Below, piece after piece: positions 3,550 through 20,346 of a stretch of 24,026 nt of DNA (the first letter of the stretch is position 1; each line of letters begins with the position of its first letter). Where the stretch lies: IMG/VR virus record IMGVR_UViG_3300028809_000068, positions 1 to 24,026 of that record; one strand, 5' to 3'. Below the pieces are notes generated by a model that was not told the origin of the DNA, did not search any database, and saw nothing but the letters and a program-made list of their open reading frames with translations. The stretch comes from a virus. Both the position numbers and the translations under genes were made by a program.

Positions 3550-3586
3550 AAAATAAGGGCGCACCGACGTGGTATCGGTGCGCCCT
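3550..3586 (-). terminator. Intrinsic terminator or attenuator in the leader of the tail operon
   Basis: A perfect 12-bp stem (3556-3567 paired with 3575-3586, 7-nt loop) is followed on the minus strand by TATTTTT directly before the ATG at 3546. It would end transcripts arriving from the small-gene islet. It also lies downstream of the TACACT element at 3633, so late transcripts must read through it. Confidence 0.8.
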
Positions 3587-3627: not shown

Positions 3628-3656
3628 AGTGTAGCGCACCGGGCGTAGCGGTACAA
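3628..3656 (-). promoter_or_regulatory. Putative late promoter (TACACTGGC type) for the leftward tail operon
   Basis: On the minus strand GCGCTACACTGGC occurs, with TACACT at 3633-3628. The hexamer 17 nt upstream is TTGTAC (3656-3651), a weak -35. The same 13-mer, GCGCTACACTGGC, precedes the gp25-like gene (-10 at 5959-5954), and TACACTGGC also precedes the terminase gene. The repeat of the motif at gene-cluster starts is the main support. Confidence 0.5.
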
Positions 3657-5559: not shown

Positions 5560-5946
5560 CTACGTGAGCTGCACCGCGCCGGTGGCGCCGTTGAAGTCGG
5601 CCACGGTCAGGTTGCCCGACAGCACGCGGCGGTCGCGGCCCACGAACCCGAAGTCGACCAGCGCCGTGCGGCACTCGGGCACCTTCAGCGCCTCGGTGTT
5701 GTAGGCGCTTTGCAGCAGGGCCATGTTCGGCGCCTCGCCCATGATCGTGTCGTAGCGGATGCCCTGCGTCGTGTCGTAGTAGACCTCGCCGCGCCAGGAC
5801 AGGCACCGGGTGGCCACATCCTGCGCCAACCGCATTCCGGGGCCGGTGTCGTCGCTCTTCGGAGTGGATGAGCCCACCGTCGCCCAGTTCCCGCGGTTGT
5901 CGGTGGTCAAGTCCCATTCGCCGTGGTCGAGCAGTAGCGTATCCAT
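5560..5946 (-). CDS. gp25-like baseplate wedge protein
   Basis: A 128-aa protein of the T4 gp25 / phage baseplate assembly W type. It opens with a short beta hairpin containing a D-x-x-G pattern (LLLDHGEWDLTTDNRGNW). The LAQDVATRCLSWRGEVYYDT segment then leads to the typical R-G-E...GIRYD. The C-terminal strands (RRVLSGNLTVADF) complete the fold. gp25 subunits link the sheath's first ring to the wedge. The family length (100-140 aa) fits. The ATG at 5946 has no Shine-Dalgarno sequence; instead TACACT ends exactly 7 nt before it (5954-5959), suggesting a leaderless transcript. The gene is divergent from the terminase. Confidence 0.7.
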   Translation of the reverse strand: MDTLLLDHGEWDLTTDNRGNWATVGSSTPKSDDTGPGMRLAQDVATRCLSWRGEVYYDTTQGIRYDTIMGEAPNMALLQSAYNTEALKVPECRTALVDFGFVGRDRRVLSGNLTVADFNGATGAVQLT

Positions 5947-5953
5947 GGGCGCC

Positions 5954-5959
5954 AGTGTA
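5954..5959 (-). promoter_or_regulatory. TACACT -10-like element, leaderless arrangement for the gp25-like gene
   Basis: Minus strand GCGCTACACTGGCGCCC is followed directly by ATG, with 7 nt between TACACT and the start codon. No good -35 hexamer occurs 16-19 nt upstream. The terminase gene on the other strand has the same TACACTGGC element and the same 7-nt gap. Confidence 0.55.
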
Positions 5960-5989
5960 GCGCAGGCGTCGTGCCGAGTTGTTTGAATC

Positions 5990-6195
5990 TAGTTGGCACG
6001 ATCCTTGCTTTGAATGACACATGACACAATGACACTAGTATTTAACTTATTCTTAGAAATATAGAATCATATTTAATCCTCTTTAAGTATGTATTTTGAG
6101 TTGGCAGACTCTTATGGAAAATGGTGTCTTGTCAGTCATTGTGTCATTGCCGATTAGAACTTTAGTGCTCAGTAGGGCAGAAAGCGCTTAAACGG
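5990..6195. other. AT-rich divergent intergenic region with ATGACAC repeats
   Basis: This 260-nt gap between divergent gene clusters holds no gene. It is the most AT-rich stretch of the window, richest at 6036-6120. ATGACAC occurs three times in near-tandem at 6014-6020, 6021-6027 and 6029-6035, and once inverted (6141-6147). ATGACACAATGAC (6021-6033) has a perfect 13-bp inverted copy at 6135-6147, about 100 nt away. On the minus strand TATATT at 6064-6059 is a possible additional -10. Candidate roles are a regulator-binding region, a replication origin or a packaging site; none is proven. Confidence 0.7.
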
Positions 6196-6201
6196 TACAC
6201 T
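6196..6201 (+). promoter_or_regulatory. TACACT -10-like element before the terminase operon
   Basis: GGTACACTGGCACGC runs straight into GTG 6209, with 7 nt between TACACT and the start codon. A -35 is not evident (TAGGGC at 6173-6178 matches poorly). It mirrors the element before the divergent gp25-like gene. Confidence 0.55.
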
Positions 6202-6208
6202 GGCACGC

Positions 6209-6679
6209 GTGACCGATTACCGCATTGCACCCGTCAAGGCGTCACTCATCGCCGACCTCGTCGAGTTGATCAACATCAACCTGGCCGAGTTGCTGCGTTC
6301 GTCGCTCGTGCAGTGCCCGGAGTGCCGCGGCAACGGTGAGACGGGCGGTGGGGCATCTGGCGAAGCTGCGCAGACCTGCGGGACGTGCGGCGGCGTGGGC
6401 TACATCGAGCGCTACACCGTCGACATGGAAATGCTCAAGACCTACCGGTACGGCCGGCTGGTCGAGGGCTTCGAGGTCAAGCAGGGCCAGCTCGTGCCGA
6501 AGATCCGCAGCAAGTCGTCCGCCTACGCCATGCTCGTGAAACTGCTGGGGCTCGACAAGGCCGTGATCGAGATCGCGCAGGGTGCAACCTTCGCGCAGGC
6601 GCTGTCGGACGAGCAGCGGGCCACCTACGTCGAGCAGCTGAAGGAACTGGCCACCATGGGCGCGCTCGATGGCCGATGA
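6209..6679 (+). CDS. Putative terminase small subunit with DnaJ-like zinc ribbon
   Basis: A 156-aa protein immediately upstream of, and overlapping by 11 nt, the large terminase; position is the main argument for a packaging-initiation role. Residues 36-64 form a CPECRGNG ... CGTCGGVGY zinc-binding knuckle pair (Cys36, 39, 57, 60) like the DnaJ central repeats. The N-terminal part (DLVELININLAELL) and the C-terminal DEQRATYVEQLKELATMG are helical. The start must be the GTG at 6209 because the next ATG in frame falls after the zinc motif. There is no ribosome-binding site, consistent with a leaderless mRNA. The zinc ribbon could recognise DNA; that is inference. It could also be a non-terminase regulator. 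Confidence 0.6.
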   Translation: MTDYRIAPVKASLIADLVELININLAELLRSSLVQCPECRGNGETGGGASGEAAQTCGTCGGVGYIERYTVDMEMLKTYRYGRLVEGFEVKQGQLVPKIRSKSSAYAMLVKLLGLDKAVIEIAQGATFAQALSDEQRATYVEQLKELATMGALDGR

Positions 6680-11433: not shown

Positions 11434-11466
11434 TAGACGGATATCATCGCGCGAGTACAATCCGCG
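11434..11466 (+). promoter_or_regulatory. Putative promoter with near-leaderless layout for the protease/scaffold operon
   Basis: TACAAT (11456-11461, 5/6) lies 9 nt before ATG 11471, between inverted GCGCG and CGCGC. TAGACG (11434-11439, 4/6) is a possible -35 with a 16-nt spacer. No Shine-Dalgarno sequence is found before the ATG, so a very short or absent leader is predicted. Confidence 0.45.
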
Positions 11467-18192: not shown

Positions 18193-20346
18193 ATGACCGA
18201 ACGCATCCTCCCCGGCATCGGGCTCACCGGATTCTGGGACCAAGGCGCCCCCTGGAAGGTCGGCGGGGACCAGAACTGGCTGCGCTCGTCGGTGCTCACG
18301 CAGCTGGCCGTCGAGTCGGCCACGACGTCGCTGCCTGCCTCGCCGCTGAACGGTGTGATCTACGTCGTCCCCGTGGGCGACGTAAACGAGAACCAAGTCG
18401 CCGCGCGCGACAATGGCGCATGGGTCTACCTGCCGCCGCAAGAGGGTTGGACGGCCTACGTGCGTGATACGGGGCAGCTCTTGACTTTCGACGGCACTGC
18501 GTGGGCGGGCCCGCTGGCCTCGGCGGACGGCGCGGAACAGGTTGGGGCTGGTGCGGAAGGTACCGTACAGGCGGCGTTGAACGGCCGGGTGAAGACCCTG
18601 CAGAACTACACCGCCCTACTCGCATATGGTGGTTTCCTTGACGTACAGATCACGTCAGCGGGAGTCGCGGGTCTGTTTCGGTACGACGCAGCATTGCCGA
18701 ACACTACCAATGGGGGCACGCAGTTCGCACACACCTCCGGTACAGGTGCGTGGACGCGCCTTTTTTCTGGCGACGTGAATATTCTGTGGTTCATTTCGGG
18801 CAGTCTCTTTGTGGACAACAGCTCGGCGGCAATTGCGGCAATTGCGGCACACAACCGTTTCACCGTGCCGCGCGGCTTCATTCTCATAATGAAGAATGTC
18901 GAGGCCCAAAACGACACAGAAATCACGTCCTACGGCGGCTTGAAACTTCCGGACGGTTGTTCGGATTTCGACCGGGGCATTTATGCGGCAGGTAAATCCC
19001 GTGTGCGAATTGTCGTGCAGGATTTCGACGGCAACTACGCGGGCCAATCCGGGAACATCGGCACCCACCTGATTTATTTGACCAATTGCCCGGACCCGTT
19101 TGTCCGGGTCGCCTACGCACACGGCCACTACATCGCCTCTGGCGCGCCGATGCCGTCACCGGACGGCATCCGGGACACGTCCACGGGCGGCGTGTTTGCC
19201 TATCAGTGCACGCGTGCGGACGTGCAAGTGAACATGATTCGCGGTTGGGGTCGAGAGGCCGTGCAATTGCGTCTGTGCGATTACGCGCGCGGTGCTGTCG
19301 GTGCGCAAGGCATTTACGACACCGAATACTCCGGCGTCCAAATGAGCGGCACTTACGGTGAATTGCTGTGGGCCGTCGTGGACTATGCCGGCGCGTCCGC
19401 CGTGGGCTTCGACATGGTGAATGGCGTTGCATCGAACATCGTTGCCACCAACACCCGCGCCAATCACGGCTTGAACATGGGCCATCCAGGCTACCCCGCC
19501 AGCGGTTCCGTGGTCAACAACCTCGTGGTCAACGGCTGCCTGGGAATGGGCGTCAGCGTGGCCTCGAGTTCAAGGGACGTCGCGATTAACAACGCCAACA
19601 TTTCCTATGCGGGCATTGCGTGCGGCAGCTTCTCAGATGGCTCGGTCGACGTGCGCGTGTCGAATAGCGTGTTCAAATTCGCAGCCCAGTACAACCTGAA
19701 CGCATCCGTCACGCAGGTCTATTGCGCCAATGTGAAAAGCAGCGAGTTTGGAGCGAAAGCGCTGAAAGTGAGCACCGTCGTTGGCAACTTCGTCGAAGGC
19801 GAAACGGTGTCTACGGGCACCGGCAGTGCGCCGCTCACGCGCCGGGTTACCGGTTTGTCTGCGACGGCGTTGCTGTTTCCGGGGACCATCACCGGCACGT
19901 TCACGGCCGCGCAGACCATCACCGGCGCCACGAGCGGGGCAACGGCAACAATCACCGATGTCTACACCCCCGTGCAGCGCAACGAGTCGAGCGGCGGGCG
20001 TTTTGTTGACACGTCGCGTTTTTACCCGGGCACCGTGGGGCAGACCAAGTTTGACGACGGCACCGCAATTGCGGCTTACTCGTTCCCTTGCGCGCACACG
20101 ACCCCAGGCACGGAGCAGCTGTTTCAACTGGCCTTCTCCTCAAATGTGACTTGGGTCGGCGACATGAGCGTGGCTGCATCGATTGGCAGCGTGAGCCTGC
20201 CGGGCACGAATACCTACACCGTGGACCGCTTGAGCGCCGTAACAACCCTGACCACAGGCAACGCCACGGGTGTCGATGTTCGCATCAACGCGTCGGTCGC
20301 GCAAACCTACGCCGTGCGCTTGGTCATGGTTGGGCGGTGGAAATAG
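18193..20346 (+). CDS. Tailspike/tail fibre with DUF2793-like head-binding part and beta-helix
   Basis: A 717-aa receptor-recognition protein. Residues 1-110 look DUF2793-like: the FWDQGAPWKVGGDQNWLR opening, GVIYVVPVGDVNENQVA, NGAWVYLPPQEGWTAYV and LLTFDGTAWAG. Residues 200-520 have the alternating short-strand pattern of a right-handed beta-helix, as in pectate-lyase-like tailspikes. FVEGETVSTGTGSAPLTRRV and TFTAAQTITGATSGATATI (about 535-590) repeat an ExxTGxxSGA-type module. The final about 120 residues form a beta-sandwich-like domain ending VRLVMVGRWK. No catalytic residues can be assigned. It is visibly more AT-rich than its neighbours, as expected for a recently exchanged host-range gene, and it is inserted between neck and sheath genes. 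Confidence 0.75.
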   Translation: MTERILPGIGLTGFWDQGAPWKVGGDQNWLRSSVLTQLAVESATTSLPASPLNGVIYVVPVGDVNENQVAARDNGAWVYLPPQEGWTAYVRDTGQLLTFDGTAWAGPLASADGAEQVGAGAEGTVQAALNGRVKTLQNYTALLAYGGFLDVQITSAGVAGLFRYDAALPNTTNGGTQFAHTSGTGAWTRLFSGDVNILWFISGSLFVDNSSAAIAAIAAHNRFTVPRGFILIMKNVEAQNDTEITSYGGLKLPDGCSDFDRGIYAAGKSRVRIVVQDFDGNYAGQSGNIGTHLIYLTNCPDPFVRVAYAHGHYIASGAPMPSPDGIRDTSTGGVFAYQCTRADVQVNMIRGWGREAVQLRLCDYARGAVGAQGIYDTEYSGVQMSGTYGELLWAVVDYAGASAVGFDMVNGVASNIVATNTRANHGLNMGHPGYPASGSVVNNLVVNGCLGMGVSVASSSRDVAINNANISYAGIACGSFSDGSVDVRVSNSVFKFAAQYNLNASVTQVYCANVKSSEFGAKALKVSTVVGNFVEGETVSTGTGSAPLTRRVTGLSATALLFPGTITGTFTAAQTITGATSGATATITDVYTPVQRNESSGGRFVDTSRFYPGTVGQTKFDDGTAIAAYSFPCAHTTPGTEQLFQLAFSSNVTWVGDMSVAASIGSVSLPGTNTYTVDRLSAVTTLTTGNATGVDVRINASVAQTYAVRLVMVGRWK

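Follow-up and report, generated by a model that had tools for sequence, protein, structure and literature searches.

Putative leaderless promoters heading the virion operons of a phage family that infects Burkholderia and Xanthomonas

The window, i.e. the whole stretch of 24,026 nucleotides (24-kb record) that was analysed, is part of the genome of a relative of the Bcep781-like Burkholderia phages (Naesvirus) and of Xanthomonas phages such as phiXaf18 (Kantovirinae): its large terminase shares 58-62% identity with those of these relatives, and the head and tail blocks are colinear. From the hosts of the relatives we infer a host within the Burkholderia/Xanthomonas groups; an actinobacterial origin, suggested by the TANNNT-ATG pattern, was dropped since Burkholderia and Xanthomonas are the hosts of the nearest phages. 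In the window a single AT-rich region of 262 bp separates the tail and head operons, which diverge directly from it (Table 1); in Bcep781, Bcep1, phiXaf18 and the XapPhi/PhiXhv phages the gp25-like and gp19-like genes lie at separate places. The gp25-like protein of the window is 50% identical to Bcep1 gp53, with a conserved N-terminus. The head operon opens with a relative of Bcep781 gp19, named here after the latter; this gene is annotated as 'terminase small subunit' in PhiXhv-1, and its product in the window contains two CxxC-type cysteine clusters. The two genes had been labelled gp25-like and terminase from the sequence at first reading. The former label agrees with the phrog_120 match, but the plus-strand gene is the one preceding the large terminase, which is the next gene and starts at 6669, and not the large terminase itself. 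No early gene was recognised in the 24-kb fragment and Rfam gave no match in the window; a 717-codon ORF (18193-20346, plus strand) lies between the relative of Bcep1 gp05 and the tail sheath gene, where tblastn found no Bcep1 counterpart.

Table 1. Coordinates, in the window, of the genes, putative promoter elements and repeats.
Feature	Position	Strand	Details
Third TACACT(GGC)	3628..3633 (9-mer TACACTGGC 3633-3625)	-	TTGTAC 17 nt upstream (3656-3651); apparently leadered
Terminator-like hairpin, 13 bp, and U-run	3556..3586	-	ends 10 nt before ATG (3546) of tail gene
gp25-like baseplate wedge gene, first of tail operon	5560..5946	-	ATG 5946-5944; phrog_120, E 1.6e-17
Putative -10 element TACACT, gp25-like gene	5954..5959	-	7 nt (GGCGCCC) before ATG
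Left repeat block AATGACACATGACACAATGACAC	6013..6035	+	AT-rich intergenic region
Right, inverted repeat block GTCATTGTGTCATTG	6135..6149	+	arms 6021-6033/6135-6147, 13 nt, 100% complementary
Putative -10 element TACACT, gp19-like gene	6196..6201	+	7 nt (GGCACGC) before GTG
gp19-like gene (small-terminase position), first of head operon	6209..6679	+	GTG start; phrog_16968, E 1.4e-63; protein alignment
TACAAT, putative near-leaderless late promoter of head maturation protease-like gene	11456..11461	+	9 nt before ATG (11471)

Twin elements had been described at the same distance from both divergent starts, and both are there: the minus strand reads TACACTGGCGCCC-ATG from 5959 to 5944 and the plus strand TACACTGGCACGC-GTG from 6196 to 6211. 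The 7-nt gap holds when counted from the hexamer TACACT but not from the 9-mer TACACTGGC, for which it is 4 nt; in both genes the first T of TANNNT stands at -13. The 9-mer occurs three times in the window for an expected 0.10, and TACACT-N7-RTG twice for an expected 0.04; these numbers were reached in none of 100 dinucleotide shuffles. The -35 boxes are poor, as first noted (with a spacer of 17 nt one reads ACAACT and TAGGGC). With duplex energies of -1.5 and -3.0 kcal/mol, to be compared with a median of -4.75 kcal/mol for 202 CDS of three relatives, neither gene has a good Shine-Dalgarno sequence, in agreement with the first reading.

Relatives were gathered by protein similarity, from alignments of the gp25-like and gp19-like proteins, so that the promoter lies outside the selection criteria; this yielded 38 distinct upstream regions per gene. 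A TANNNT hexamer with a gap of 6 or 7 nt to the start codon is present in 32/38 regions of gp25 and in 36/38 of gp19, or 37/38 once a misplaced start (L096) is corrected, the first T falling at -12 or -13 in these 32 and 37 relatives. At 0-5 or 8-10 nt before the start, TANNNT occurs in none of the 38 gp25 and 38 gp19 regions. Absence of the element from the relatives had been named beforehand as the outcome that would speak against leaderless initiation; these counts give the opposite. The gp25 set contains 16 distinct TANNNT hexamers, whose middle bases vary freely, and grouping its 30-nt flanks at 60% identity gives 26 clusters (median pairwise identity 30%), a clustering that corrects only roughly for the fact that the loci are related and the counts not independent. 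With flanks so unrelated and hexamers so diverse, only T-A-...-T and its distance to the start appear to be kept in this set. Part of the invariance of T1, A2 and T6 comes by construction, since the rows were found via TANNNT and those of the family logo, where T/A/T are invariant or nearly so, were picked for A2 and T6; it is the distance that stands as an independent result. Within the gp19 set, 27/38 regions keep TACACT itself. Besides, a C or a T immediately precedes the start codon in every one of the genes that have the element (69/69), against 61% of the 202 CDS, and RNA polymerase prefers a pyrimidine at -1.

Of the six gp25 regions that depart from TANNNT, four carry CACACT or CACAAT in its position; in the other two, L025 and L032, an extra gene lies between the promoter and gp25. 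That of L025 has an AAGGAGG Shine-Dalgarno and its stop codon is 12 nt before the gp25 ATG; the -10 is missing at gp25, which is no longer the first gene, since the extra gene precedes it within the operon. L032 was assigned to the same case solely on the similarity of its intergenic sequence. The gp19 exception L084 displays, by eye, TAAAGT-CGCCCC-ATG four codons upstream of the start chosen by our script. In phiXaf18 (L004, positions 77-95) the deposited gp19-like start, at 77, is upstream of the -10 hexamer and the conserved leaderless start would be the ATG at 95, so that this annotation is probably 6 codons too long.

The element is restricted to the first genes of operons. It was found before none of the inner genes considered: TerL (0/32), portal (0/28), minor head (0/11), MCP (0/9) and the gene that follows gp25 (0/38). 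By contrast baseplate J, the first gene of another late operon, has it in 6/6 cases with a gap of 6-7 nt. The head protease, also a first gene, shows a looser arrangement among ten distinct relatives, with TANNNT at gap 7 in 3/10, at gap 8-10 in five more (the window included) and absent in two. The distribution of Shine-Dalgarno sequences is the reverse: energies of -4 kcal/mol or lower are found in 1/38 gp25 and 5/38 gp19 relatives, and in 75-100% of the large terminase, minor head, capsid and sheath genes. Several gp19 genes of the phiXaf18 clade and that of L066 nevertheless possess a G-rich stretch, a possible Shine-Dalgarno, down to -7.0 kcal/mol.

Fixed spacing, a pyrimidine before the start, scarce Shine-Dalgarno sequences and limitation to first genes make leaderless initiation at a sigma70-type -10 the best reading of these data, and the comparison among relatives strongly supports this part of the original prediction. 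We give a probability of about 0.87 to the two TACACT being the -10 boxes of divergent late promoters, read by the host polymerase with its housekeeping sigma factor and producing leaderless gp25-like and gp19-like mRNAs. Transcription would start at the initial nucleotide of the start codon or no more than about 2 bases away; the mRNA of the tail operon would begin with the gp25-like gene and that of the head operon with the gp19-like gene, and ribosomes would initiate at the 5'-terminal AUG or GUG without any Shine-Dalgarno, the downstream genes of both operons relying on ordinary Shine-Dalgarno sites. The transcription start, the polymerase and its sigma factor, the late timing and the leaderless translation are all what we infer from sequence, late expression because the genes have virion functions. 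Two features of the window argue against leaderless initiation: its two promoters have a degenerate -35, and its gp19-like gene starts with GUG. A GUG start is reported to be inefficient on leaderless mRNAs in E. coli, though not in all bacteria (PMC9031893). Among the relatives, the G-rich stretches of some gp19 genes and the CACACT or CACAAT of four gp25 exceptions count against this reading too.

The upstream region distinguishes the two promoter types. Aligned on the hexamer, the gp25 logo displays TTGAC at a spacer of exactly 17 nt from the -10; TTG is present at spacer 17 in 10/37 sequences and in 0-2 at any other spacer, and the mean number of matches to TTGACA is 3.05/6 at spacer 17 against about 1.4 elsewhere. 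A TTGACA-like -35, at 17 nt, is a family pattern of the gp25 set, with no good match at 16-18 nt in the two promoters of the window nor in the gp19 set. Read in this way, the gp25 pattern is that of a sigma70 promoter from which transcription is expected to begin at the start codon. It had been proposed that a phage or host factor replaces the -35 contact: such a factor is needless for gp25, given the family TTGAC at 17 nt, and the idea keeps its place for gp19 only.

The gp19-type promoter could be leaderless and yet depend on an activator from phage or host, or on a protein that modifies sigma, recognising CTATCG/ATTGCG in place of the -35. Its conserved form is CTATCG...ATTGCGTTACACT: the logo shows no clear -35 at 16-18 nt, CTATCG lies 20-21 nt upstream in 15/36 sequences, (A)TTGCG stands directly upstream of TACACT, and G occupies -2 in 94%; one clade of Xanthomonas phages has a TTGAC, only 7 nt upstream. 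In Bcep781 (L003) the gp25 and gp19 promoters, although 20 kb apart (16067 and 36449, both on the minus strand), share a near-identical block of about 30-40 bp, CTATCGCTTTGCATTGACGATTGCGTTACACTCGCAYGCATG, a point in favour of an activator. A small protein of phiXaf18 (L004, 42784-43326, minus strand) is a candidate transcription regulator on the basis of a weak match to sigma-70 region 4, a helix-turn-helix (HTH) (E 4.6e-5, below the Pfam cut-off), and of a second, weaker HTH-like match. On the other hand, CTATCG and ATTGCG are missing from the window and its nearest relatives, CTATCG being absent from the whole window clade and found, within gp25 promoters, only in those of Bcep781 type; a -35-like TCGNNA is readable at 17-18 nt; and no regulator is tied to the site, the Bcep781 gp21 protein, similar in position to the phiXaf18 one, having been rejected as sigma-like because it contains no sigma-like domain. 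We consider the need for such an activator as possible but unlikely. A wider proposal, that the late structural operons are leaderless as a strategy, with a phage activator substituting for the -35 at gp19-type promoters and an advantage for late translation as initiation factors or the state of ribosomes change, seems to us more doubtful still.

TACACT might also be part of a binding site for a phage regulator or for the packaging or replication machinery, the real start being elsewhere and translation leadered. The strong conservation of TACACT itself in the gp19 set would fit a binding site, as would the imperfect inverted repeat formed by the two copies of the window (5951-5962/6193-6204). 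However, this explanation does not account for gp25, where the middle bases are free while T1, A2, T6 and the distance hold, and where TTGAC at 17 nt is a sigma70 pattern; it is very improbable. As for chance or the common ancestry of a short sequence without function, the two nearest relatives (L006, L007) do share much of the region by descent, but over most of the family the flanks are unrelated and the element and its spacing persist, and inner genes are devoid of it, which leaves this explanation next to no credit.

Leaderless (TA-led) bacterial genes have been described by a signature of their own, a TANNNT some 12 bp ahead of the start codon (Zheng et al. 2011, PMC3160421); with them the phage genes share the hexamer pattern, the distance (first T at -12 or -13) and the absence of Shine-Dalgarno; TA-led genes are chromosomal, whereas those of the phage family are the first genes of virion operons and the layout is kept in unrelated flanks. 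According to the same study, leaderless genes are predicted, among gamma-Proteobacteria, mostly in Xanthomonadales, and occur in 9/71 beta-proteobacterial genomes (PMC3160421). In Burkholderia cenocepacia J2315, which belongs to the host genus of the Bcep781 relatives, 72 genes have a transcription start site that coincides exactly with the start codon and is directly preceded by a TAnAAT-type -10 (Sass et al. 2015, PMC4603805); those transcripts were mapped experimentally and are enriched for regulators, whereas the phage genes are virion genes known from sequence. Leaderless transcripts, initially thought unusual for such a phage, are thus less so, being known in Xanthomonadales and Burkholderia, the hosts of the relatives; as leaderless genes are documented or predicted in both groups, these hosts can plausibly translate leaderless mRNAs.

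On the phage side, the closest likeness is to lambda cI, a leaderless phage mRNA in a proteobacterial host and the one named in a review (PMC9031893). We found no description of leaderless late operons of phages in the open-access literature. The cI gene encodes the repressor of a temperate phage, unlike late structural operons. T4 MotA/AsiA and P2 Ogr act at activator-dependent phage promoters without -35; the window and the gp19 set resemble these by a -10 without good -35, but for the phage family no activator site or protein is identified and gp25 has a family -35. As far as the open-access literature shows, a phage family (about 40 relatives) whose virion operons retain what looks like a leaderless layout at their first genes would be new. 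If so, a lytic family of Burkholderia and Xanthomonas phages starts its virion operons leaderless even though promoter flanks, hexamer and gene order change, and offers a natural system to ask what leaderless initiation is good for. It would also bear on the annotation of gene starts and promoters in the family, for example the deposited phiXaf18 start, and short promoter/start cassettes of this kind might be usable in high-GC hosts.

The third TACACTGGC of the window was rejected as a leaderless start: the next start codon is about 75-80 nt away, beyond a terminator-like hairpin. The tail gene that follows the hairpin is a relative of Bcep1 gp48; its leader of about 75 nt is conserved, with a z-score of -5.6, and the pattern scan for the leader of this third element matched only the two nearest relatives (L006, L007). 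A terminator-like hairpin precedes the same tail gene in all the relatives that were read, with differing sequences, and could possibly be an attenuator, an antitermination site or a small RNA.

The intergenic region between the divergent promoters has a structure of its own. Among the 21 phages whose late promoters diverge (window 5980-6160; L021-L056), most have an AT-rich core flanked by inverted repeats of 7-8 bp, which differ from phage to phage: TGACAC, ACAGACGA, ACGGAGGA, ATCCCACC, ACTGACGA, etc. This arrangement might correspond to a replication origin with fast-changing iterons, or to regulator sites.
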